Below are positions 13,595 to 25,852 of a stretch of DNA of 49,803 bases, piece by piece. The notes beneath the pieces were generated by a model that was given only the letters and a program-made list of their open reading frames with translations, searched no databases and was not told the DNA's origin. The translations under genes and the position numbers were made by a program. The stretch is from Bacteriovorax sp. BSW11_IV (GTDB lineage Bacteria; Bdellovibrionota; Bacteriovoracia; Bacteriovoracales; Bacteriovoracaceae), in assembly GCF_000447755.1 (NCBI RefSeq), contig NZ_AUNE01000057.1:1-49803 (forward strand), read 5' to 3'. Each line of letters begins with the position of its first letter. Position 1 is the stretch's first letter.

Positions 13595-14758
13595 ATGAAT
13601 AAAAATAAGGCCATAGGAATTCAAAAATCACAAGTAATCAGCGCGGCAAGTGAAGAGATGATTCAACTTGATCTGCTAAGTTTTATTTCTGATAAAATTG
13701 TTCCAACAGACATTACCGAAAGAAAAAGACGCACTCGTTTTGTTACGGGTCGTGAAAAGCAAGCAAAGGCCTTAGGTAAAGGTCATCGCTACTACGGTCA
13801 CGTCGATAAAAATAAAACTTTTGACACATTTTGCTTGGGGGAATCCAATAAGGCAGCGCTTGAAGCAACTAAGCGCTTTCTAGGACAAGAAAAATGTGAC
13901 TTTGGTGTGATTTATCTCATGGCAATGAGTGGCCTGGGTAAATCACACCTTCTTCATGCCGCGGCCAATGAGCTGATGGAGATGGGGAAGTCTTTTTATA
14001 TAACTTCACCTTCAATGCTTCAGGATTTAAAAGATCCATTTAATGAATTGAAAATGTATGATTTTCTTCTTATCGACGATATGGAAGAAATCGCACAGTT
14101 GGCCTATTTGCAACAAGAGTTTTGTCGACTTTTTGATTACGCAAAGATGGGTCGCATTAAAATTATTGTCACTGGTGCCGTACTACCTAGAAACTTGTCG
14201 TTTTGTGATGACCGTTTTAAAGGAAAGTTATCTGGTGCGCTAATACATAAAATATGCAAAATGAATTCTGATCTGGCCTTCTCAATTGTTGAAGCAAAAT
14301 GCCAGAGTATGAACTTAAATTTAGCTCAAACAGCAAAAGATTTAGTTGCCCATAGTTTCGATTTCAATGTTTACGGACTTGAAAGTGCTCTTTATAAATT
14401 AAAAAGCTATAGCGATATCTATAAAAAAGAAATCGATCTTGAGATTGCACTTCACGAACTAAAGAGTCTAGGCCGTGTTCTTGATAGAGACGATAATTGC
14501 CAGAAAATTATTGGACGTGTTGCAAGCTATTTCCATGTCGACAAGGACGATATTCTCTCTCCAGTGAGAAGAAAAGAAGTGGTTTATGCTCGCCATATGG
14601 CCATGTTCATCCTTAAAGAGAAAAATGGTCTGAATATAATGAGGATTGCGGATTTATTTGGTCGTGATCATAGTTCTATCATATATGGTATTTCTCGTAT
14701 GAAGCTCGAGATCGAAAAAGATCCCGAGCTATCAAAGATTGTCCATAATCTTATCTGA
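13595..14758 (+). CDS. DnaA-like AAA+ protein (paralogue lacking domain I)
   Basis: A 387-aa protein with DnaA domains III and IV. AAA+ part: FDTFCLGESNKAAL (about 76-89), P-loop AMSGLGKSHLLHA (110-122, first Gly replaced by Ala), Walker B FLLIDD (157-162). Domain IV, about 300-387, keeps the DnaA signature GRDHSSIIYGISRMK (356-370) and the conserved Arg in YARHMAMFIL. Domain I, which recruits helicase, is absent, and the N-terminus is a basic stretch. The box VII arginine finger position is Lys211 and the sensor II Arg is Tyr260, so ATP-driven oligomerisation is doubtful while DnaA-box binding looks intact. AAGGGA precedes the ATG. Neighbours are not replication genes, so I take it as a paralogue, not the main dnaA. 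Confidence 0.85.
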   Translation: MNKNKAIGIQKSQVISAASEEMIQLDLLSFISDKIVPTDITERKRRTRFVTGREKQAKALGKGHRYYGHVDKNKTFDTFCLGESNKAALEATKRFLGQEKCDFGVIYLMAMSGLGKSHLLHAAANELMEMGKSFYITSPSMLQDLKDPFNELKMYDFLLIDDMEEIAQLAYLQQEFCRLFDYAKMGRIKIIVTGAVLPRNLSFCDDRFKGKLSGALIHKICKMNSDLAFSIVEAKCQSMNLNLAQTAKDLVAHSFDFNVYGLESALYKLKSYSDIYKKEIDLEIALHELKSLGRVLDRDDNCQKIIGRVASYFHVDKDDILSPVRRKEVVYARHMAMFILKEKNGLNIMRIADLFGRDHSSIIYGISRMKLEIEKDPELSKIVHNLI

Positions 14759-16600
14759 TTAAATTCTACTTCTTTCTGATTGAAAGTTTAGAGGTTGTTT
14801 AACATCAACAATCCCACCACCTTTTGGTACAGGGAAGTCGATCATATTAAGAACTTGGGCCATACAATTTACACCCTTATTCGAGAATTTTGCCCCTTTA
14901 GAAATGATATCGATATTTGATACTTTTCCATTTCCATTGATTCTAAATTTTAAATCTACAACACCTTTGATTAAATCTTGTTTAGCATCAAGTTCATTTT
15001 GGTAGCAGTAATGAAACTGTGGCAAGTATTCACGTAGTATTTTTCTTAAAAGTTCTGGGTCAATAGAGCCTAGAACAATCGTTTTTGGAGCTTGGTAGGC
15101 GGTATTGATCCCTTTCTTTGAGGCCATTCCTCTTAGACCTTCAGATGAAGAGTCACTTCCAACTGAGTTACTTCCTAAACTGGCTGTTCCGTTTGAAAGA
15201 TTTGTTTTGAAGTTGTTATTTGAATTAGCACTTGCTGAGCTTGGTAGCGTTGCGGCCAAGCTTCTGGCGCTAGAATCACTTGATTCTTGTGATTCATTAA
15301 ATTTCATATCAACTTTTTTGTTAAGAAACTTTGTAAGTCCTTTTGTAACTTTGAATTCAAACTTTTTCTCAACAGGTTTTGCTTGTGCTTTTGGTGCTGC
15401 CTGGGCCACTTTTTGAGGTTCACTCTTAGCTTTTTTAGTCTCTTGTTTTTGAACCTGTTGTTTAGCTGCGGCCATCTTTGGCTGTTTCTCAGAAATATCT
15501 TGTTTCTGAACACCTTGATCTTGATCCACCTTTGAAACTTCTTGCGAGGCCTTATCCGTGACTTCTGGCCCTTTTAATACAGTTTGCTTGAAGATAACGA
15601 TTCTTTTTTCTTCTGGTTTTGGAGGTTCTGGTAATCTTACAAAAAGTAATAATAACATTACTGAAAGCATGGCCCCAAAAACTGTTCCCGATTGCTTATA
15701 GAAGTTTTTGTCAGCATCAAATAATGGCCCCATTTTCAGTGTTGGTGGGTGAGATGAAATGCGAGTGAAAATTTGCACAGTTCCTTTTGTGTAAATTTGA
15801 AATTCATCTAATCTTGTGCTGTGAAATCCTGCTAAATCACTAAAGTGAAGATTCTTACCGTTAATTGTGGCCAATTGAACTTTCTCATCATGAGAAAAAA
15901 GAGGGCAGTTCACACTATTTCCAGAACTTTCTTTCCCTGAAAGATAAATTTCCTTATTTTTAATACTCACATAGTCCATTGCAAGTACTACACCCATTGA
16001 AGTAATCGTTACTTCTAAAGACTCCCCTGATTTTCCAATTACGATGTCGTGGGAATTCTTGTGGTTTGACTCATCATAGTCAATAAATTCCTTTTCGTAT
16101 TGATACTCAGAAAGAGTGTGAACGTTTGATGGTGTAAAGTGATCTTGATCGAAAACAATGTCACAGTACTCGCCATCAATGACTTCGAGCCCTTCTTTTG
16201 GTGGAACTGGAGGAAGATCCGTCATGGAATCTTTAATGAATTTTGTAATTTTGTCATCAAGCACGACAAAAGGTGTTTGTTCAAGATAAACTTCCTCCAA
16301 CAGAAACTTTTTATCAGCAATTTCTAAAACATCTCCTGGAAGTACAAAACCTTGGGTGACTCTTTCACCATTTAAATAAAGTCCATTTTTACTACCAAGG
16401 TCTTGCACGTTTAGCCCATCTTCTTCCACGTGAAAAAGAGCGTGATAGTGTGAAGTGAATGTATCTTCAATGATAAAGTCACAACCATGACCACTACCAA
16501 CGATGGCCTTATCTCTGTCCATGAGAAAGTTGAGATATTCAGAACCATCAATATATTGAACGAGACGTAGGAATTTCTTTTCTTCTGATTTATTCATCAT
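14759..16600 (-). CDS. FHA domain - transmembrane - AgmX/PglI C-terminal domain protein (GltG-like)
   Basis: A 613-aa inner-membrane protein. Residues 10-110 are an FHA domain (IVGSGHGCDFII, HYHALFHVEEDGLNVQDLGSKNGLYLNGE), a phospho-Thr binder facing the cytoplasm. A second FHA-like or beta-rich region spans about 190-305. One membrane helix lies near 325-347 followed by a PEPPKPEEKR segment like TonB, a long Lys/Gln/Ala-rich periplasmic linker (380-500), and a C-terminal AgmX/PglI domain (about 515-605: LLRKILREYLPQFHYCYQNEL, VVDLKFRINGNGKVSNI). This is the layout of Myxococcus GltG/GltJ, which connect the motor to the outer membrane. It is the last gene of the ten-gene block; AAGGAT precedes the ATG. 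Confidence 0.87.
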   Translation of the reverse strand: MMNKSEEKKFLRLVQYIDGSEYLNFLMDRDKAIVGSGHGCDFIIEDTFTSHYHALFHVEEDGLNVQDLGSKNGLYLNGERVTQGFVLPGDVLEIADKKFLLEEVYLEQTPFVVLDDKITKFIKDSMTDLPPVPPKEGLEVIDGEYCDIVFDQDHFTPSNVHTLSEYQYEKEFIDYDESNHKNSHDIVIGKSGESLEVTITSMGVVLAMDYVSIKNKEIYLSGKESSGNSVNCPLFSHDEKVQLATINGKNLHFSDLAGFHSTRLDEFQIYTKGTVQIFTRISSHPPTLKMGPLFDADKNFYKQSGTVFGAMLSVMLLLLFVRLPEPPKPEEKRIVIFKQTVLKGPEVTDKASQEVSKVDQDQGVQKQDISEKQPKMAAAKQQVQKQETKKAKSEPQKVAQAAPKAQAKPVEKKFEFKVTKGLTKFLNKKVDMKFNESQESSDSSARSLAATLPSSASANSNNNFKTNLSNGTASLGSNSVGSDSSSEGLRGMASKKGINTAYQAPKTIVLGSIDPELLRKILREYLPQFHYCYQNELDAKQDLIKGVVDLKFRINGNGKVSNIDIISKGAKFSNKGVNCMAQVLNMIDFPVPKGGGIVDVKQPLNFQSERSRI

Positions 16601-16616
16601 AACTTATCCTTTTTTT

Positions 16617-17462
16617 CTATTTCGCTGCGATCGTCTTCAAATGTTCTTCAACCATCTTTTGAAGGCTTCTGCTCATTTGGCGAATTCCAGAAATAAAAGG
16701 AACGTCCTGATCCTTTAATACTATTTTTGCTTCATCAAATCTTTTTGCTCCAATTAAGGCCAATGAATAGTAAAGAGCGATATCTTCACGCTTTCTATTC
16801 ACTGATGGGATTTGTTCGAAATATTGAATCCCTTTAATATATTGACCTTCAAGGGCAAATGTAATTCCAATAGAACTCAGTAGATCAATGTCGTTTGGTG
16901 CTACTTTTAGTAGAGGGATTAAGTAAGACTTCGCTTCTGATAGCAAATTGTACTGAAGATAGAGTAATCCTAAATTGTACTGAGTACTATAAAGGGTTGG
17001 AGATAGTTTAAGGACTTCTTTGTACAAAATTTCAGCTTCAGTAAAATGTTCAATCTTATGAAAAATTAGCGCCTTGTTATGAAGAAGTTTAATCTTCAAG
17101 GATTCATTATTTTTAACTGTGAGTAGACCTCTGTCGACAGAGAGTAAGGCCTCATCATAGTTTTTTGCTAAGATATGACAAACTGTACGAATATTCCAAA
17201 CTTGATCATCTTTAGAAAGTTTTGTGTAATTGTCATTGATAATACCAAGACCAACTTTACTTTCTTTTTGGTGACATTTAAGTAATGCTCTTGTAATTAA
17301 ATCGCGATCTGATTCAAGCATAACTTCTATTTTTTCATCTGATAACTTCCAAAGACCATCTTTATGGAACACAGACTCTTTGTTTGTACTTGTATAAATT
17401 CTTAGTGGAGAATTTGCACAAGAAGTAAAAATAAGAAATAGAAGGGTTTGTAGTACTTTCAT
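16617..17462 (-). CDS. TPR lipoprotein of the Glt-like cluster
   Basis: The start at 17462 is chosen because AAGGAG lies 9 nt upstream and the product then begins with a lipoprotein signal (MKVLQTLLFLIFTSC, Cys15); its ATG overlaps the TAA of the preceding gene by one base. The 281-aa protein carries about five tetratricopeptide-like helix pairs (for example LHNKALIFHKIEHFTEAEILYKE and YNLGLLYLQYNLLSEAKSYL), giving a protein-binding scaffold on the periplasmic face of a membrane. It resembles Myxococcus GltE/AglT in type (TPR lipoprotein next to a larger TPR protein), which is an inference from architecture. Confidence 0.8.
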   Translation of the reverse strand: MKVLQTLLFLIFTSCANSPLRIYTSTNKESVFHKDGLWKLSDEKIEVMLESDRDLITRALLKCHQKESKVGLGIINDNYTKLSKDDQVWNIRTVCHILAKNYDEALLSVDRGLLTVKNNESLKIKLLHNKALIFHKIEHFTEAEILYKEVLKLSPTLYSTQYNLGLLYLQYNLLSEAKSYLIPLLKVAPNDIDLLSSIGITFALEGQYIKGIQYFEQIPSVNRKREDIALYYSLALIGAKRFDEAKIVLKDQDVPFISGIRQMSRSLQKMVEEHLKTIAAK

Positions 17463-20290
17463 TATTTTTCTCCTTTTGCTAACTCTTCCCAAGGCATGTC
17501 GATTGCACCAGCTAGGTGGTGAGAGTAAATAGGGAATTTAGAAAATTCGATTTCATTTTGAAGCTTCGAATTAGCAAAGTTGTGGAAATCAAGAGGTTTA
17601 CGTTCATCCAAAGTTTTTTCGATATTAAAAGAGACTTTTTGACTCTTTTGACCAAGTTTCTTTTGGATCTTTGCAATTTCACTAACAACCATTTTGATTT
17701 CTTCTTCTTTAAGATTTGGAAAGTTTAGTGCTGTTAGTTTTGCATTTTCGTTGGCAAATTTCTTCTGAAAGTTAATATTGAACTCTAGGGCCATTGAAGG
17801 TGATAGAGTCTTCATATAAGCAGTATTTTCATTAAAGAACTTATCCAATGATGCAAGTGAGGTTTCAAGCCAGTTATTGAATATATCTTCTTTAAACTCA
17901 CGATTATTCCATGCTTGGATTGTGAATGCTTGTACATTTTGTTTACTTAGTTCAAATTCATTCATCTTCTTTTGAAAAACTGTGATTTTTTCTCTTTGAA
18001 TACTATTTGTTAAAGGCATTACTTTTGACAAAAGAGGGTTGTCGTAGTTATCAATCGCAAATGTCACTAGATCATTGATAAATGGAGCTAGTTCTACTAG
18101 ATGATTTAACTTATTTTTTTGATAAAAAGTGATAAAAGCATCTTTATCAAATAGGTAGAGATTTCTAGCAATAAATACAATTGATTCAGATCTCATTTTT
18201 GCTGAAACACCACATTTTTCACCCATATCAACTAATTTAGCTGTTAGATGTGTTTTCTTATTAAAATAGAGCGCTGTCGTTGTTTGGAAGTAAGCATCAT
18301 CAAGGCCTTTACCTATTTTGCAGAATTTTCTCATATACCAAAGACCAAGTTTTTGGGCCTTGATATATTCTTCTCTGTCATAAAAGGCCTTAACTAATGA
18401 AATATAGTTATTTTCACGCTCTTTGATCTCTTTCATTGTTAAAAGTGGCATTGAATTAGAGTTCCATGCCCATGTTGAGTTCGTGTCATTGAGTTTGATT
18501 TTCATGATGGCCAGGTTGTGTGCAGAAATCCCGCGAAGAACTTTTGGAAGAGTTTCATCTTTGTAGATTTTTGCATAACCTTCTTCAGCGTCTTTAAATA
18601 GACCATTCTTTTGATTTGTATCGTATTGCTTAAACAACAACTCCCCAAGTGCCATTGTAACTTTGTTTCTGTACTCCATTTGAAGTGAGAATTGACCAGC
18701 ATTAATTTTATTAACATGTAAAGTTAGATCATTAATTTGATTTCTCTTAAATAGATTATCTAAAAGATTTTTATACAACTCTTTTTGAGTCCCAAGGTCT
18801 TTGTTAATATTCTTGTTGTATGTTACAAGAGTATCAAATGCCTTAGCTGTTTCATTGTTATCAAGAAAAATACGGAATAGATCTTTGTAAATGATCGGAG
18901 CTTCTTCTGATTTTGGAAAATCTACAATATAGCTTGAATATACAAAGATAAGATTGTTTTCTTTTACCTTCTTTGTAAATTGACCTTCTGAAATTGTCGC
19001 TAGAATCGAATTATATAGTTTTTTCTTAAAATCATCGATTCCCATTTCTTTTTTAGAGAATTCAAGTGATGAAAGGTAATTCTTAAGTGCTTTGTCGAAC
19101 ATCGCAAGACCGAAGAATGTTTCACCTTCTAAGAATTCGTATTTGTAATTAAGAGTTGGGTTGATCAGAGCTAGTTCATCAAAGATATTTACAATACTTG
19201 TTAGGTTAGCTTCGCTGTACTTTTCAATACCGTCTTTTGATACAGTTGCTTGTAAGAAACCAACTCTTTGAGTTAATAGATCAATAATATTCTTCTTTTG
19301 ATCCTCATTTAGTTTTTCTCTTTTTGCAACCAGGTCATGTCCTAGTCCTTCGAATTTGTCGAAAATCTTTGCTTCAAGATAAAAGTTGAAAAGATCAACT
19401 TCTACAATAATTTGTTCTTTATCAAGTTTTTGTTCCAAAAAGTGCTTAATTGCAAAATTATAAGTAAAAAGAGCATCGTCAACACCATTATGAGTGTTTG
19501 CTCTTCTTGCTAATTTTGTAAAATAGTCTGGTTCTTTAGGCGCCGCTTTGGCGTAGAATTCAGCACCTTCAGCAACTCTTTTTCCCTTCACAAAAAACGA
19601 AGCTGCACTATCAAGTATTTGACCGGTAACATCAACGAATCTTTTATCATTTGACAGTTCATATGACTTCACAAGAGCAGTAATTGCCTCATCAAATCTT
19701 TTCTCTAAGAGTAAGCACCATGCATAGTTATAGAAGTTTTTAGATGTCCATTCATCGGCCATATTGTTGATAACATATGTGTAATGGAAGATCGCTTTCT
19801 TATATTTCTTTCCGTTATAGTAATGTTCTGCAAGTGCTACGTGAATTTTGTATAAAAGGTCACCTTTTTCTTTTGATAAAGAAAGAGCTTTTTCAAGATA
19901 GAATGCACTTTTCTTTTCCTGACCAAGATCACGTGCATTCATTCCTATTGTATAATAGATATTAGGGATACCAACAAAGTAAGGATTTTTACTAATTAAG
20001 TACTTTGCTTCTTTTTCAATTTTTGCCGCTCTTAGTTTTGTTTTAGCATAGTAGTCTTTTGATCTTTTTCCCGTTTTTAAAACTCTCGCATTTTCATCTT
20101 CTCTGATGATAGCAAGCTTTTCCGACTCAATTTCAAGGAGACGGTAACGAAGTCCTGTATCAAGACGACCAAGCGACTTTATCGTTTTTTCTTCTTTTAG
20201 TAGGAGATTCCAAATTCTCTTAGTTTTTTCATCCAGTGAAAAGCTACTAACACAAAAAATCAATAGTAGTGTAGTTGTTATGCTTTTCAT
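17462..20290 (-). CDS. Large periplasmic TPR protein (GltD/AgmU-like)
   Basis: A 942-aa exported protein with a signal peptide (MKSITTTLLLIFCVSSFS) and an almost entirely alpha-helical body of tetratricopeptide-like repeats (for example ALAEHYYNGKKYKKAIFHYTYVI and FNYAWCLLLEKRFDEAITAL in residues 150-215). No catalytic motif is visible. Size, location and repeats match the periplasmic scaffold GltD/AgmU of the Myxococcus gliding machine. It begins 8 bases after the second ExbD gene and overlaps the TPR lipoprotein start by one base, so translation of this part of the operon is coupled. Confidence 0.8.
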   Translation of the reverse strand: MKSITTTLLLIFCVSSFSLDEKTKRIWNLLLKEEKTIKSLGRLDTGLRYRLLEIESEKLAIIREDENARVLKTGKRSKDYYAKTKLRAAKIEKEAKYLISKNPYFVGIPNIYYTIGMNARDLGQEKKSAFYLEKALSLSKEKGDLLYKIHVALAEHYYNGKKYKKAIFHYTYVINNMADEWTSKNFYNYAWCLLLEKRFDEAITALVKSYELSNDKRFVDVTGQILDSAASFFVKGKRVAEGAEFYAKAAPKEPDYFTKLARRANTHNGVDDALFTYNFAIKHFLEQKLDKEQIIVEVDLFNFYLEAKIFDKFEGLGHDLVAKREKLNEDQKKNIIDLLTQRVGFLQATVSKDGIEKYSEANLTSIVNIFDELALINPTLNYKYEFLEGETFFGLAMFDKALKNYLSSLEFSKKEMGIDDFKKKLYNSILATISEGQFTKKVKENNLIFVYSSYIVDFPKSEEAPIIYKDLFRIFLDNNETAKAFDTLVTYNKNINKDLGTQKELYKNLLDNLFKRNQINDLTLHVNKINAGQFSLQMEYRNKVTMALGELLFKQYDTNQKNGLFKDAEEGYAKIYKDETLPKVLRGISAHNLAIMKIKLNDTNSTWAWNSNSMPLLTMKEIKERENNYISLVKAFYDREEYIKAQKLGLWYMRKFCKIGKGLDDAYFQTTTALYFNKKTHLTAKLVDMGEKCGVSAKMRSESIVFIARNLYLFDKDAFITFYQKNKLNHLVELAPFINDLVTFAIDNYDNPLLSKVMPLTNSIQREKITVFQKKMNEFELSKQNVQAFTIQAWNNREFKEDIFNNWLETSLASLDKFFNENTAYMKTLSPSMALEFNINFQKKFANENAKLTALNFPNLKEEEIKMVVSEIAKIQKKLGQKSQKVSFNIEKTLDERKPLDFHNFANSKLQNEIEFSKFPIYSHHLAGAIDMPWEELAKGEK

Positions 20291-20298
20291 AAATACTC

Positions 20299-20823
20299 TT
20301 AGTTTGCCTTAGATTGAACGATGAAGCTAAACTTGTGGTAACCTGACGTGGCAGCCACTTGCATAACTTTATCCAACGTTTCATAAGGTAGTTCCTCATG
20401 TAATACGATGTTCACTCTCTCTAAGTTTTCTTCTTTTTTGGCCAATAGCTCTTTACCTAGAATATTCGAAGTGTCTCCACCTTTTATTTGAGCAATTTCT
20501 CTTTTGCTATCTTCTGATAATTTCGCTAGCTTTGAGCTTAAAATACCTCTCCAATTTCCTTCAGAGACGATATTTGTGGCCATCTCGTTGTTAATAAAAA
20601 CATTGTTCTTCTTATCGACTTGTAAAATAAGAGTTTTCACACCAAGTTCTTTTGAATTTGATCTTGCAAGACTTAGATCCTTTACAAGATCAAGCTTTAA
20701 ATCACTTGGATTATAATTTTTAAGTAGGAATACTAGTAATATAACAAGAATATCTAAGAGTGATGTAATATCAATCTCTGCTTCGGCCATTTTCTTGTTA
20801 AATTTCTTTTTACTCTTTCTCAT
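20299..20823 (-). CDS. ExbD/TolR-type motor protein (second copy, AglS-like)
   Basis: A 174-aa protein with one N-terminal membrane helix preceded by a Lys-rich cytoplasmic tail. Asp24 lies in DITSLLDILVILLVFLL, the position of the proton-carrying Asp of ExbD/TolR/MotB. The periplasmic part ends like TolR (YETLDKVMQVAATSGYHKFSFIV). With the other ExbD and the ExbB it would form an inner-membrane proton-driven motor, as AglR-AglQ-AglS do in Myxococcus. It is 14 bases from the preceding ExbD gene. Confidence 0.88.
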   Translation of the reverse strand: MRKSKKKFNKKMAEAEIDITSLLDILVILLVFLLKNYNPSDLKLDLVKDLSLARSNSKELGVKTLILQVDKKNNVFINNEMATNIVSEGNWRGILSSKLAKLSEDSKREIAQIKGGDTSNILGKELLAKKEENLERVNIVLHEELPYETLDKVMQVAATSGYHKFSFIVQSKAN

Positions 20824-20837
20824 AATTATTGCCTCAA

Positions 20838-21305
20838 TTAATTTGATTCAAAAATGACATTTTCAAAGAGCTCTTTGGCCATACCATTTTCAGCAATAAT
20901 CCATTTGCTATGATCTACAACCTTGATAATCTGAGCATATTTAACGGTTTTTGCCGGTTTAATTATGATCGTTTTCTCATCAGGGTGTTTCTCTTTAATT
21001 TTTCCTAACGTCTGTCCTAGTTCTTCCAGTGATTTATCGTCTTCAGCAATTTTGATTGTTTTAACCACTTTTTCGTCTAAACCTGTAATGACATCGATAT
21101 TATTCTTAGTCACTTTAAGTGTTAAATTCAATGGTGGCTTATCATCTTTCTTTTCAGACACATCTTTCACTAATGGTCTGTCTGTTCTGATTTCATGGAT
21201 TTCAACGAACTGGGCAGACATAAGAAGGAAGAAAATGAAAATGAATACCGCATCAAGGATGGGAATCAAGTTCAATTTTTCGGCCTTCTTCATTTGTCTT
21301 TTCAT
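20838..21305 (-). CDS. ExbD/TolR-type motor protein (first copy, AglQ-like)
   Basis: The start is taken at ATG 21305 (155 aa), with GGGG 5 nt upstream; the 5 extra codons of a GTG-type upstream start add nothing conserved. The membrane helix holds the proton-path Asp18 (LNLIPILDAVFIFIFFLLMS), followed by a TolR-like periplasmic domain. Two different ExbD proteins beside one ExbB is the subunit make-up of the Agl gliding motor and also of some Tol-like systems. The neighbouring TPR, FHA and VWA genes favour the Agl/Glt reading. Confidence 0.87.
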   Translation of the reverse strand: MKRQMKKAEKLNLIPILDAVFIFIFFLLMSAQFVEIHEIRTDRPLVKDVSEKKDDKPPLNLTLKVTKNNIDVITGLDEKVVKTIKIAEDDKSLEELGQTLGKIKEKHPDEKTIIIKPAKTVKYAQIIKVVDHSKWIIAENGMAKELFENVIFESN

Positions 21306-21326
21306 ATTTACCCCGCCCAAAAACTC

Positions 21327-21995
21327 TTAAGATGCTTTTTTCTGAGTACCAAGAAGATCTACGATCTTGATTGAATACTGTTCCATATCATTAAGAATCT
21401 TTTCACCCTTACTAGTTAAAAAAGAGTGAATAACAAGGATACTAATCGCTGAAATAAGACCAAGTGCTGTTGTATTCATGGCCTTCGAAATCCCTAGTGC
21501 AAGTAGTTTTGCTTTCATTGACGGATCTGCACCAGCAACCGCAGCAAATGATTCGATTAGACCTTGAATCGTACCTAGAAGACCTATTAGGGTTGATACG
21601 TTTGCCGCTAAAGATAAATAGTTCATTCTTTTTTCTACTTTTGGGGCCATTTCCATAATTGTGGCATCGATAGCATCACGAATTTGGTCTTTATCCTGGT
21701 TTGCTCTTTTAAGTCCTGATCTAAGAACTTGTGGTAGTAGGGCATTAGAGTTTGAACATACTTGAATGGCCTCTTTCACGTTATTACTTAGAACATTTTT
21801 CTTAATTAATCCCATTAACTTATTTCCATCTAGATCATATGAAATAAGGCTTTTTAGTCTTTCTACTGCTACAGCAATACCTAATGCCCATACTACAAAA
21901 ATGATCCACATGAATATTCCACCCTCATCCATAAAAAGGGCAAGGGATTGTAAGAATGATTTATCTGTTGCGACTTGTGCAATTTCGTTTTCCAT
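21327..21995 (-). CDS. ExbB/TolQ/MotA-type proton channel protein (AglR-like)
   Basis: A 222-aa inner-membrane protein with three helices (about 27-48, 120-142, 165-188) and the family-typical sequence NVSTLIGLLGTIQGLIESFAAV plus the TTALGLISAISILVIHSFL helix. The cytoplasmic stretch between the first two helices ends with the MAPKVEKRMNYLSLAA region. It would form the proton channel with the ExbD proteins encoded 22 bases downstream and pass force to envelope partners. Confidence 0.93.
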   Translation of the reverse strand: MENEIAQVATDKSFLQSLALFMDEGGIFMWIIFVVWALGIAVAVERLKSLISYDLDGNKLMGLIKKNVLSNNVKEAIQVCSNSNALLPQVLRSGLKRANQDKDQIRDAIDATIMEMAPKVEKRMNYLSLAANVSTLIGLLGTIQGLIESFAAVAGADPSMKAKLLALGISKAMNTTALGLISAISILVIHSFLTSKGEKILNDMEQYSIKIVDLLGTQKKAS

Positions 21996-22008
21996 ACTTC
22001 TTCTCCTT

Positions 22009-22263
22009 CTATCTTAGATAGTAAACATCCCTGTCTTGTTCATCTTTATATGTTGTTCTTAAATAAAGCTTTCTCGAAAATCTCACTCTTTCTCTTTCTT
22101 GCACTGAGAGATCTCCCGGTGCTAGAAGATTTCCTTTAATTTCTAAGTTTCCTAAGTCAATCTCATCATATTTTTTATATTTAATGATGACGTTGTCTTT
22201 AGCTTCAACGAGGGCAATTTTAAAAGTGACGAATAAAATTGCTGCAATTAGTGCGTATTTCAT
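22009..22263 (-). CDS. Small exported protein of the Glt-like cluster
   Basis: An 84-aa product with a signal peptide or N-terminal anchor (MKYALIAAILFVTFKIALVEA) and a short charged mature part (about 63 aa) ending in RDVYYLR. I recognise no domain. It lies between a TPR gene (3 bases upstream) and the ExbB gene (13 bases downstream), so it is within the operon; its place and size are reminiscent of the small periplasmic GltF of Myxococcus, but that match is not established here. Confidence 0.7.
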   Translation of the reverse strand: MKYALIAAILFVTFKIALVEAKDNVIIKYKKYDEIDLGNLEIKGNLLAPGDLSVQERERVRFSRKLYLRTTYKDEQDRDVYYLR

Positions 22264-22266
22264 TTT

Positions 22267-23700
22267 TTACCTTCTTACTCTTGTGACTTTTTGTAACTTA
22301 CAGTTAGATTCAAGTCCAAATGAGTAGTCTCCAAGTTCGTCTGCCCAAAATGACCCTTGGAATGTCCAGAAATGTTGTAATTCATTTCTTTTTATATTCT
22401 TCTCACTACCTCTTGTTCTTTCTTTTGCTAATGATTGCCCCTTATAAAGAAGATCTTTTTTGTTACTTATAACTTCAAGTGATACGTTAAAGAGCTCATA
22501 GCTAAATCTGTGTACTTCATTTATAAAATCAAACATTTCTTTTTTGATGAAGTGGTTGATTTTTCTTCTCTTCCAGTTGATTACGGCCGACATTCTTTCA
22601 TCTAATTCTTTTGAAAAGGCATCTTGCTTTAGTTTTTTGATAGCCATTTCTTCAAGAATTGATCTTTTTAAGTTAATAAGATCAAGTGAATAACGAATTC
22701 TTTTACGTACTTGAGTCACAAGGTTTCTAATGTACGGATTCATTTCTTCTTTTTCTTTTAGTTCACCGAGTGTTAATTTTAAAAAGTAAGTATCCGAATT
22801 TTTATTTGCAGCTAATATCTTTTTAAGTTCATTGGTTTGTTCGCGGTAGTATGAATCATATTTATCCACAACAACACCAGCATCATCATAAAGACACATT
22901 TTTAAATAACTCAAGGCGCTCAAATATTCTGCTTCTGGAAAGAAGTAGCTTGATAGGAGAGGGGCCTTGTAAGTTACGAGAAGTCCTAAAACTCTGTTGT
23001 AGTCTTCTAGGTAAAAATGAGACCAGGCCATTTCCATAAGTGTGTATGGCCATGTGTAGGATGTCTTTGGGATCTCATGGTAAAGTGAGATCGCCTTTTG
23101 GTAACTTTTTTCTTGAAAGTAATTTCTAGCACGATTGATCAAACATTTTTCTGCGATAATTGTGTAGTATCTTTCTAGCTTTTCTTTTTTATTATCTTTT
23201 GCAAGATCTTTAGCAAGGATTTCACATCTTTCTAGAGATTTATTACCTTCAGTCATATTGTTCATTGCACTTTGAGCAATTCCTCTTGTTAAAATTGCCT
23301 CAGGTGCAAATTTATGATTTTCAGGAAATGGAGCGAGTAAATGAACCACTTCTTTAAATCTATTGGCCTTAAATAGTCTTTCTGAAGCAACGAATTTAAG
23401 GGCCCAACTTTGTTGTGCCATTAATCTCTCTGCTTTAACTGAATCGAATACTTCATGTCCTGTTTTAATAACAAGTGTATCTACCCATTCAGTTAATTCT
23501 TCTGGAATATTATTTCCAGCTTCAATGTACTCTCTCAAAAAAGTTGCACTTGCTAAGTAATACTTAGATTGAAAGAGCTCTTTGAATATTTTCAAATTCT
23601 TTTCAACTGATTGATCTTGGATATAAATCATTTTTGCTTTGTTGTACGAAGCAAATGATTGTGAACCCATGATGAAAAGAAATGTTAACAATACTTTCAC
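22267..23700 (-). CDS. Exported TPR-like protein of the Glt-like cluster
   Basis: A 477-aa protein with a signal peptide (MKVLLTFLFIMGSQSFAS) and helical repeats (AERLMAQQSWALKFVASERLFKANRFKEVV; residues 90-300 have several TPR-like pairs such as MEMAWSHFYLEDYNRVLGLL). The C-terminal third is charged and predicted helical or coiled coil. The last residues CKLQKVTRVRR are basic. It follows the outer-membrane protein gene by 14 bases. The role is likely as a periplasmic scaffold of the same machine. Confidence 0.75.
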   Translation of the reverse strand: MKVLLTFLFIMGSQSFASYNKAKMIYIQDQSVEKNLKIFKELFQSKYYLASATFLREYIEAGNNIPEELTEWVDTLVIKTGHEVFDSVKAERLMAQQSWALKFVASERLFKANRFKEVVHLLAPFPENHKFAPEAILTRGIAQSAMNNMTEGNKSLERCEILAKDLAKDNKKEKLERYYTIIAEKCLINRARNYFQEKSYQKAISLYHEIPKTSYTWPYTLMEMAWSHFYLEDYNRVLGLLVTYKAPLLSSYFFPEAEYLSALSYLKMCLYDDAGVVVDKYDSYYREQTNELKKILAANKNSDTYFLKLTLGELKEKEEMNPYIRNLVTQVRKRIRYSLDLINLKRSILEEMAIKKLKQDAFSKELDERMSAVINWKRRKINHFIKKEMFDFINEVHRFSYELFNVSLEVISNKKDLLYKGQSLAKERTRGSEKNIKRNELQHFWTFQGSFWADELGDYSFGLESNCKLQKVTRVRR

Positions 23701-23714
23701 ACTTTCCGCCTTAA

Positions 23715-24431
23715 TTAGAATGAGAAACCAATTGAAAATACGATATCTGATTGATTACGCCACTTCTGTGTTGCTTCACGACCATTGACGATAGGTCCTT
23801 TTGCTCTATAGAAGTCTTTTGAGTAATCAATGTTGATATGTAATCCCTTTTTTAAGTGAAATCTCACTCCTGTTTTTGCTGATGGACCTACATAATTTTC
23901 TTTTTTAAATTCTGAAGGTCTATTTGGATCAGCAACTGTTTCAGCATTACTTTCAGTGTTGATTAGTGATAAACCACCTGAGAAATGCCAATCAAAGTAG
24001 AAAATTTTATTAAAAGTATTAATCTTCCCGTAGAAAGGTGACCATGTTACATACAAAGAAGTTGTAGATAATGGTTTTCTTATAAACGGTTCAGTTTGGT
24101 TAATTTGTCTAATATTTTTTACAGCATCATTGTCACTGTTTGAGTACAACTTATAATCGATTTCTAGGGCCCATTCTTCATTTAGAAAGTGCCCAATCTT
24201 CGCTTGCCCACCAATAGTATCTTGATATTCATTAGATAAATGAGAGAGGAACCCCAACTCCATGTAAGTGGTTCCTCTCTTAGGATATGCCTTATTTTGT
24301 AAGACATATACCGACTTGTCGGGGTCGAGCCAAAGAAACTTATACAGGTCTTTTTCTTCAGCTCTGGCCTCGCCAATAACCATGGCATTTATTATGGTGA
24401 GAAGAAGGAAGGTCGATAAAAGCTTGCTCAT
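23715..24431 (-). CDS. Outer-membrane beta-barrel protein of the Glt-like cluster
   Basis: A 238-aa protein with a signal peptide (ending GEARA) and beta-barrel-type strands: alternating hydrophobic residues, GGLSLINT, GPSAKTGVRFHL, and a last strand DIVFSIGFSF ending in Phe, as expected for BAM recognition. It starts 2 bases after the stop of the VWA lipoprotein gene. Myxococcus Glt machines contain several such barrels (GltA, GltB, GltH); the match is by architecture and position only. Confidence 0.78.
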   Translation of the reverse strand: MSKLLSTFLLLTIINAMVIGEARAEEKDLYKFLWLDPDKSVYVLQNKAYPKRGTTYMELGFLSHLSNEYQDTIGGQAKIGHFLNEEWALEIDYKLYSNSDNDAVKNIRQINQTEPFIRKPLSTTSLYVTWSPFYGKINTFNKIFYFDWHFSGGLSLINTESNAETVADPNRPSEFKKENYVGPSAKTGVRFHLKKGLHINIDYSKDFYRAKGPIVNGREATQKWRNQSDIVFSIGFSF

Positions 24432-24433
24432 GG

Positions 24434-25852
24434 TTAGTTGTCCTTTAATACTTTATACTCAATCTCAATATTCGATCCTGGAGCTGGTACATATCCTTCA
24501 AGGAAAGACACGGCACCACTTTGCGCATCAAGTTCATAACCTGATGTAACTAGTTCTCCATTTACTTTTACTTTAATGTCTTGTGTTGCAGGAACACGTG
24601 CTAGTGCAAATTTCGAAAGAAGGTCTACGATTTTCCCACCCATGTCTCCAAGGATAGTGTAGAAGTCATCTTCGATATCTGCTGACATACCACCTGTTTT
24701 TTCAGAGGCCTCAACGTAGCGTAGACCTAGAGATTCATTACTTCTGTTTTTCTCTTTAGTTACGATACTGTAAATTTTTACTTTACCTTCATCCTTTTTA
24801 AGACTTCTATAGAATGACAGGTATTCATCTACTGACTTAGAAGATTGGTCTTCTTCATCACTTAAGTAAACGATTACAAGGTATGCATCATCTCTCAAGA
24901 ATTTTTTATTTGAAGGAAGCTCATACTTTTTGAAAAATGATTCTGAAGTATGTAGACCTTTTTCGTATCCACTTCCTTTAATTCCAACATTTACACATCT
25001 TTCGAAGTCACGTAAGAATTTAGTTTCATCTTTTTTAGCTGATTGTGAGTCTAGTAATTTATCATTACAAACCCATTTCCCGTTTTGACGAGAAGTCGCA
25101 TCTGTAGTTGTGATTCCCATTTGGAAATCAACATCTTTTTGGATGAAATCGCTAATAAAAGAGTTGAAATTACGTCCCAGACTCGCTTGTTCATCTGCCA
25201 TAGAACCTGAATCATCGATAACCCATAAGATATCAACTTTGTTTTGTTCTTCTACATTTTGAACGAATCTGTCTGTAAGCGTTTTGTACTCAACAGTTGG
25301 TGTTGTTGGGTTTTCTTCGCCTTCATCTGGATCAGTTTCAGAACCACCATCAGTACCACCATTGCTGCCTCCATCGTCACCATTAGAGCCATTGTCTCCA
25401 ATCGATCCGTTGCCACCGTTAGAACCACTGTCACCAATTGAACCACCGTCGCCGTTAGTACCACCGTTGCCGTTTGTACTACCATCGCCGTTTGTTCCAC
25501 CGTCACCGTTAGAACTACCGTCGCCATTAGAGCCACCATCACCATTTGAACTACCATCGCCGTTAGTCCCACCGCTACCGTTTGTACTACCGTCTCCGTT
25601 AGTTCCACCATCTCCGTTGATACTACCGTCACCGTTAGTACCACCGTTATCAATTGTGCCATTGTCTCCAGTTGAACCATTAGTTTCCGGCACATCAATG
25701 TTTCCATTGTCTGTTGGAAGATTTACTGATGGTTTTTCAACAGCAGCACCATTTAAAATTTCTTTTTCATAAAACTCTTGTTGATTACAAGAAGCTAATA
25801 CAAAAGTGGCACATAGGCCTAAGACAAGAGAGTTTACTTTATTGCCGTTCAT
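24434..25852 (-). CDS. VWA-domain lipoprotein with Gly/Asn/Asp repeat (CglB-like)
   Basis: A 472-aa lipoprotein (lipobox VLASC, Cys22). Residues 58-175 are a low-complexity stretch of near-repeats NGDGGTNGDGS. A von Willebrand A domain follows (about 203-400) with an intact MIDAS DDSGS (213-217), the Thr site GITTTDA and the Asp site LSDEEDQSS, so a metal-dependent adhesive surface is expected. The C-terminal 60 residues are beta-rich. In Myxococcus the VWA lipoprotein CglB is the gliding adhesin. This is the first gene of the block, with GAGGA ahead of its ATG and a 347-bp upstream region. Confidence 0.87.
   Translation of the reverse strand: MNGNKVNSLVLGLCATFVLASCNQQEFYEKEILNGAAVEKPSVNLPTDNGNIDVPETNGSTGDNGTIDNGGTNGDGSINGDGGTNGDGSTNGSGGTNGDGSSNGDGGSNGDGSSNGDGGTNGDGSTNGNGGTNGDGGSIGDSGSNGGNGSIGDNGSNGDDGGSNGGTDGGSETDPDEGEENPTTPTVEYKTLTDRFVQNVEEQNKVDILWVIDDSGSMADEQASLGRNFNSFISDFIQKDVDFQMGITTTDATSRQNGKWVCNDKLLDSQSAKKDETKFLRDFERCVNVGIKGSGYEKGLHTSESFFKKYELPSNKKFLRDDAYLVIVYLSDEEDQSSKSVDEYLSFYRSLKKDEGKVKIYSIVTKEKNRSNESLGLRYVEASEKTGGMSADIEDDFYTILGDMGGKIVDLLSKFALARVPATQDIKVKVNGELVTSGYELDAQSGAVSFLEGYVPAPGSNIEIEYKVLKDN
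25328..25681 (-). repeat. In-frame repeat coding the NGDGG(T/S) tract
   Basis: About 350 bp of tandem degenerate units, mostly 9 or 18 bp, encode the Gly/Asn/Asp/Ser/Thr tract of the VWA lipoprotein. Copy number is probably variable by slippage or recombination. It causes long spurious Pro-rich ORFs on the plus strand. Confidence 0.85.

Follow-up and report, generated by a model that had tools for sequence, protein, structure and literature searches.

The window, that is, the whole stretch of 49,803 nucleotides of Bacteriovorax sp. BSW11_IV that was analysed, was found to carry on its minus strand, from position 25852 down to 14759, a block of ten genes related to the Glt/Agl gliding machinery of Myxococcus, headed by the gene of a predicted surface lipoprotein with a VWA/MIDAS domain (Table 1). 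The gene order, sizes and tight packing given in a preliminary description of this DNA were borne out by a check of the open reading frames (ORFs). Intergenic gaps measure 2–16 bp and the sole overlap, of 31 bp between gltD and gltE, is cut to 1 bp when ATG 17462, the more likely start of GltE, is taken in place of the listed TTG. Promoter and terminator scans gave results at or below chance. The source genome (G000) has a size of 3.65 Mb and belongs to the class Bacteriovoracia; named relatives returned by a search with the GltC alignment fall in Bacteriovoracaceae, Halobacteriovorax (including H. marinus), Bacteriovorax and Bacteriovoracia. Judging by its predatory relatives, the organism is presumably a predator itself.

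Table 1. Predicted features of the ten-gene block and the adjoining gene (window positions)
Feature	Position (strand)	Length (aa)	Details
VWA/MIDAS surface lipoprotein (V)	24434–25852 (−)	472	Signal peptide, lipobox LASC (Cys22), conserved EFYEK motif, linker, integrin I-like MIDAS domain, small C-terminal beta domain
Tandem repeats	~25376–25647 (−)		18/36-bp units encoding the linker of the VWA protein
OMP_myx_plus outer-membrane beta-barrel, GltA/GltB-like (O)	23715–24431 (−)	238	TIGR04565, 113.5 bits (cut-off 60)
GltC homologue, periplasmic TPR protein (C)	22267–23700 (−)	477	NF033756, 97.5 bits
CglF/GltF-like small exported protein (F)	22009–22263 (−)	84	Motif DLGxLxIKGxxxAPGD; NF033764, 22.6 bits
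AglR/ExbB/TolQ-type motor protein (R)	21327–21995 (−)	222	PF01618, 94 bits; structure matches TolQ/ExbB
ExbD-1, AglQ position (Q)	20838–21320 (−)	160	PF02472, 55 bits; start probably ATG 21305, not TTG 21320
ExbD-2, AglS position (S)	20299–20823 (−)	174	PF02472, 52 bits
GltD-position periplasmic TPR protein (D)	17462–20290 (−)	942	Based on homologue in second set
GltE-like TPR lipoprotein (E)	16617–17492 (−)	291	Start likely ATG 17462
GltG homologue (G)	14759–16600 (−)	613	FHA domain, second beta domain, transmembrane helix, disordered arm, TonB-like C-terminal domain
DnaA-like protein	13595–14758 (+)	387	ATPase and helix-turn-helix domains

Gene content and homology of the block

The preliminary description had proposed a Glt/Agl-type machine and named as its rival an unrelated Tol-like or uncharacterised transport system without Glt kinship; Glt family matches were found, among others for the FHA protein and the 477-aa TPR protein. 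The Pfam scan recognised the FHA, TPR, MotA_ExbB and both ExbD domains. Among NCBIfam models, OMP_myx_plus and the myxo_SS_tail domain scored above their cut-offs, while the scores for GltG, GltC, GltE, CglF and the MIDAS adhesin all fell below the curated equivalog cut-offs, so that the Glt proteins are best regarded as homologues and not as Myxococcus orthologues in the curated sense. Taken together, the matches support a real Glt/Agl homology extending beyond a Tol-like composition. The earlier gene labels could be refined at three points, the 84-aa exported protein being CglF/GltF-like, the 477-aa TPR protein a GltC homologue and the VWA protein a relative of the Bdellovibrio MIDAS adhesins.

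Within the motor, both ExbD proteins keep the membrane Asp (LIPILDAVF and ITSLLDIL), as had been stated before, and the best named NCBIfam matches of ExbB and the ExbDs are TolQ, TolR and ExbD. The FHA protein matched the NCBIfam GltG model at 92.2 bits and the AgmX/PglI C-terminal domain at 57.2 bits, above the cut-off of the latter. When its 33 relatives were scanned singly, all matched GltG, 15 matched GltJ and ten matched tonB_Cterm. The structural model of the block GltG comprises the FHA domain (residues 8–106), a beta domain (190–283), a transmembrane helix (298–320), a disordered arm (337–510) and a C-terminal domain (513–607) with the predicted order helix-helix-strand-strand-helix-strand. 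As a structure search with the whole model listed only FHA domains among its matches (Z 16.3), the C-terminal domain was examined by profile: built from all set types and compared with the PDB, the profile recovered 14 sequences, all of them TonB (best E 8.5e-5). At the sequence level this domain is a TonB homologue. The membrane helix of the block GltG does not carry the TonB-type Ser-x3-His; Ser and His in this helix are part of the SHLS motif with which TonB and TolA bind their motors (PMC12204202). In Myxococcus, GltG and GltJ have earlier been proposed to be TonB/TolA-like (PMC5349195), and GltG to bind AglR (PMC3858216). It was also observed that the phosphothreonine-reading Arg of the FHA domain (within residues 32–56) is replaced by Ser in 23/33 relatives, which makes classical phosphothreonine reading by GltG doubtful; the domain may bind no phosphopeptides.

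The lipobox and the linker repeats uphold the earlier description of the first gene product as a VWA repeat lipoprotein. Its linker is rich in Gly, Asn, Asp and Ser and is predicted to be disordered (residues 25–170, predicted local distance difference test (pLDDT) below 50), followed by a confidently modelled domain from about residue 185 to 470. Among 31 relatives the lipobox Cys22 is invariant, as are Asp213, Ser215, Ser217, Thr249, Thr250 and Asp332, a pattern consistent with a complete MIDAS (DxSxS, T, D). The VWA domain was not recognised in the Pfam scan, and a PDB sequence search with the VWA alignment gave no match at E 0.001; integrin I domains were reached only through the fold search (best Z 17.2, 2.8 Å over 185 residues), and such a fold does not by itself show function. 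All 31 relatives, scanned singly, match the MIDASAdhsBdello model and 27 of them match CglD. The block protein itself scores 66.9 bits against the former, well under the equivalog cut-off of 700, and is thus placed by its sequence as a member of the Bd1483/Bd0875 MIDAS-adhesin family and not as an orthologue of Bd0875. The previous identification with CglB is not supported by these matches; no CglB match was seen in the profile scans, which contained no CglB sequence or model. The protein is the only close family member in the source genome (next match E 2.5e-10). Other families sampled have several VWA relatives per genome, with 20/33 lying within 15 kb of a GltC gene. In the tree, the Bacteriovoracia VWA proteins are sister to a group of Bdellovibrionia MIDAS lipoproteins, among them the VWA protein from the Bd1473-1483-like set (support of the joint group 0.99).

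For the outer-membrane and periplasmic module, the assignments of GltF, GltD and GltE draw on a second Glt set of the same genome (L010, see below). The CglF model, CglF being an alternative name of GltF (PMC4488436), matches the 84-aa protein weakly (cut-off 90) and 6/21 of its relatives; the homologue of this protein in the second set occupies the GltF position between GltE and GltG. No match to the NCBIfam GltD model was found among 22 relatives of the 942-aa TPR protein. It is called GltD because its second-set homologue (23% identity over 721 aa, E 5e-42) sits in the order GltC-GltD-GltE-GltF-GltG, as in the Myxococcus G1 cluster, gltD-gltE-gltF-gltG (PMC3169522). The NCBIfam GltE model matches 10/20 relatives of the 291-aa protein, the block member itself reaching just 12.9 bits, outside the 0.01 threshold. 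The names GltD and GltE for the two TPR proteins are thus tentative, resting on where their genes stand and on paralogy. The best Pfam match of GltC (Carbam_trans_N, 18.8 bits) was under the cut-off and was taken as chance.

Conservation of the block and replacement of its motor

A GltC homologue is encoded by 122 of the 129 class genomes and by 320 of the 339 genomes sampled from the phylum. Gene order was counted over the 80 best named loci, which were found independently. The full order V-O-C-F-R-Q-S-D-E-G (letters as in Table 1) was present in 45; most of the others are cut by contig ends, ten have a motor-swap order described below, three are of the second-set type and three hold only barrel, GltC and GltF. 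The recurrence of an identical ten-gene order in 45/80 loci indicates that the organisation of the block goes far beyond chance. The ten-gene block with its adhesin is nearly unchanged throughout the class Bacteriovoracia.

The second Glt set of the source genome (contig C29, 16139–26746) has homologues of nine of the ten block genes in the order barrel-GltC-GltD-GltE-GltF-GltG, with ExbD-ExbD-ExbB convergent on GltG and no VWA gene, whereas the motor genes are internal in the block. Other members of this type in the class (L081, L084 and others) likewise have no VWA gene, and their motor genes, where seen, converge on GltG. In trees of the Glt proteins, midpoint-rooted and built without a Myxococcus outgroup, the two Bacteriovoracia sets are sisters and stand apart from three set types of Bdellovibrionia. 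Orthology of the block set with Bd1473-1483, which had been expected, was thus not borne out.

Modules of barrel, GltC and GltF with no motor genes nearby were seen at L065, L080, L094, L174, L175 and L208, as if a motor specified at another locus could drive the outer-membrane part. Loci from further families of the phylum (L097–L099, L101 and L102) hold barrel, GltC, GltD, GltF and GltG without an adjacent motor, several of them having one or two proteins of ~900–1000 aa encoded just upstream.

A different motor was found in a genus here called g3, whose records go under the names Bacteriovorax sp. or Bacteriovoracaceae and in which the order is V-O-C-F-D-E-ExbB-ExbD-GltG (L053, L054, L147–L149, L155–L159 and L163). 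Its ExbB is only ~20% identical to the block ExbB, there is a single ExbD, and GltG is without the FHA half. Ser-x3-His occurs in the GltG membrane helix of 11/11 swapped proteins versus 2/115 others; the exact four-residue spacing of Ser and His is that of S16 and H20 in TonB. An AglR-type ExbB is absent from five g3 genomes (best match 32% identity over most of the protein), and in three other genera each of four genomes encodes two, at 55–84% identity. A second ExbD and a second TonB-type GltG are encoded elsewhere in the g3 genomes (L243, L244, L248, L250 and L251). In its C-terminal domain, this second GltG is, genome by genome, 37–51% identical to the second set versus 34–42% to the block, while the domain of the swapped GltG adjacent to the VWA set is 61–67% identical to the block versus 38–47% to the second set. 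By these set-specific identities, both Glt sets of g3 were re-engined, each retaining its own C-terminal domain. Since g3 is nested in the window-type clade of the Glt-protein tree, the swap is derived. At L244 (positions 1044–1439, G003 contig C3), directly downstream of a TonB-type GltG, lies a gene for a 131-aa predicted lipoprotein consisting of the TonB-like C-terminal domain of GltG alone.

It may well be, on these grounds, that in Bacteriovoracia one Glt machine has a MIDAS adhesin firmly built in as the foot with which it holds a surface, and that the motor is an exchangeable cartridge, swapped in both g3 sets with the outer-membrane module and the adhesin retained. If so, the genus represents a natural experiment in which Glt machines are run by TonB-style force transfer via the C-terminal domain of GltG, a transfer for which the arrangement of FHA domain and two ExbDs would be dispensable. 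Should the TonB-like end of GltG be the path of force, then a swapped machine would have to function with neither FHA control nor stators of the AglRQS type.

Comparison with known systems

The Agl-Glt machine of Myxococcus xanthus shares with the block GltC, GltG, barrels, AglRQS, a VWA surface lipoprotein (CglB) and probably GltD/E/F. It differs in that its genes are divided among the clusters G1, G2 and M1, CglB is not in the same cluster, and GltH, GltI, GltJ and GltK are present. The preliminary description contrasted with it the fusion of the genes into a single unit, which is not unusual, as the Bdellovibrio sets and the ancestral core also form single clusters (PMC3169522). Four tonB/agl operons are known in Bdellovibrio (PMC2797640). 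One of them, Bd1473-1483 (with aglR Bd1481, aglQ Bd1480 and the MIDAS lipoprotein Bd1483), resembles the block in being a single cluster of VWA, ExbB, two ExbDs, TPR, CglF, GltG, barrel and GltC genes. Its counterparts here (L092, L095 and L116) were recognised by gene order, and for L092 and L095 also roughly by map position, not by a named record. They have the order VWA-x-R-Q-S-TPR-F-G-O-C and, unlike the block, a VWA protein without the long linker. At L092, L095, L108 and L116, which are Bd1473-1483-like, the membrane Asp of ExbD-1 is lost (LAPLLAVM or LAPMLAMM) and that of ExbD-2 is kept, giving a lopsided pair. The operon Bd0828-0838 resembles the block in its expanded Glt core and AglRQS; its likely counterparts (L091, L117 and L119) have no VWA gene and the order O-O-C-D-E-F-G-R-Q-S, so that they, like Myxococcus, hold two barrels where the block holds one. 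With TonB-ExbB-ExbD and TolA-TolQ-TolR the block has in common its channel proteins and, in GltG, the C-terminal domain. It is set apart from them by two unlike ExbDs, the FHA domain, a GltG helix without Ser-x3-His and a dedicated outer-membrane module with adhesin.

Proposed function and alternatives

The ten genes probably specify a single Glt/Agl machine that spans the envelope, is driven by protons and has a surface adhesin of its own; most likely it acts as a TonB-like force transducer. In favour of this stand the Glt family matches, the D-E-F-G order of the second set, the invariant gene order of the block, the TonB matches of the GltG profile, the motor swap, the lack of a further close adhesin of the family in the genome, and the MglA/MglB-like genes mentioned below. 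The ExbB-ExbD-ExbD channel, of AglRQS type, would turn proton flow into motion of GltG, a TonB/TolA-like transducer with its FHA domain in the cytoplasm and one helix in the membrane. The long flexible arm of GltG would take the TonB-type C-terminal domain through the wall to an outer-membrane module of barrel, GltC, GltF and the TPR proteins GltD and GltE, which would carry or expose the VWA/MIDAS lipoprotein. The latter would grip a surface (solid, biofilm or prey), and force on the outer membrane would become traction. Direct contact between adhesin and complex, and a role in surface traction, be it gliding or movement on prey, are what we infer; the Bdellovibrio literature suggests that the block serves traction on surfaces or prey by means of an adhesive foot. 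Insertions in Bd1481 and Bd1483 have a similar effect, reducing the clearing of thick biofilms and not halo formation (PMC2277423), and bd1480 is induced on surfaces in a manner dependent on Bd0367/cGAMP (PMC9140294).

Several points weigh against this assignment. GltH, GltI, GltJ and GltK are essential in Myxococcus, and none was identified among the ten block genes, to which the scan was confined; the machine identity given previously is partly supported. Bdellovibrio has none of the four (PMC3169522). In the trees, the partner of the block set is the other Bacteriovoracia set, which has no VWA gene, and not the Bd1473-1483-like sets. The best gliding candidate of Bdellovibrio is held to be Bd0828-0838 (PMC3169522), whose likely counterparts have no VWA gene. 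Invasion is normal after deletion of bd1483 (PMC11003981), and the transposon in Bd1483 may have had a polar effect on aglR. For Bacteriovoracia, the open-access literature yielded no experiments with this set.

It is possible, though less probable, that the block is a prey-grip or invasion machine in which the prey is held by the MIDAS adhesin while the motor draws the predator along its surface or inside, general gliding being left to the VWA-less second set. This would agree with the localisation of the MIDAS adhesin Bd0875 at the predator-prey junction, where it aids entry (PMC11003981), with the sister relationship of the VWA groups, with the loss of attachment after insertion in the AglS gene Bd0838 (PMC6561027), and with a second set that, like the Bd0828-0838-like sets, has no VWA protein. 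However, the normal invasion after deletion of Bd1483, itself the MIDAS protein of a Glt set, speaks against it, as does the rise of bd1480 on plain, prey-free surfaces. It is rather unlikely that the block, like Nfs in sporulating Myxococcus, moves or anchors a surface polymer, or that it serves Tol-Pal-like envelope upkeep, the VWA protein then binding a polymer instead of giving traction. AglRQS does drive the paralogous Nfs set in spore coat assembly (PMC3858216), some bacteria that are not known to glide also have core Glt sets (PMC3169522), and GltG ends in a TonB-like domain; against these stand the adhesin fixed in the operon class-wide, its retained MIDAS residues and the lowered biofilm predation of the Bd1481 and Bd1483 insertions. 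An ordinary TonB/Tol cluster for nutrient uptake or transport, with no Glt relationship, is very improbable: the TolQ, TolR and ExbD matches of the motor proteins would fit, but not the GltG, GltC and OMP_myx_plus matches, the GltF-like protein or the Myxococcus gene order in the paralogous set, and no TonB-dependent receptor is present among the ten genes.

Glt sets of this kind have been known since 2011, and Bd1473-1483 already includes a MIDAS gene. As far as the open-access literature shows, the motor swap is new, and so is an operon that includes an adhesin and is kept throughout a class. A 2026 review (PMC13104615) considers the motor, the adhesin and the path of force in Bdellovibrio gliding a major open challenge; for each of them the block supplies a candidate within a single operon, with the motor-swap genus providing a test of mechanism. 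With one close MIDAS adhesin and two Glt sets in the source genome, deletions should give clearer results here than in Bdellovibrio, where the sets number at least four and the VWA relatives seven to ten.

Elsewhere in the source genome (contig C59, L261), an MglA-like GTPase gene and an MglB-like gene with recR adjacent were identified by eye from sequence and position; the same arrangement has been described in Bacteriovorax marinus (PMC3983030), and the finding is in keeping with the proposed machine. The DnaA-like gene beside the block is convergent with gltG, with zero gap between the two stop codons.

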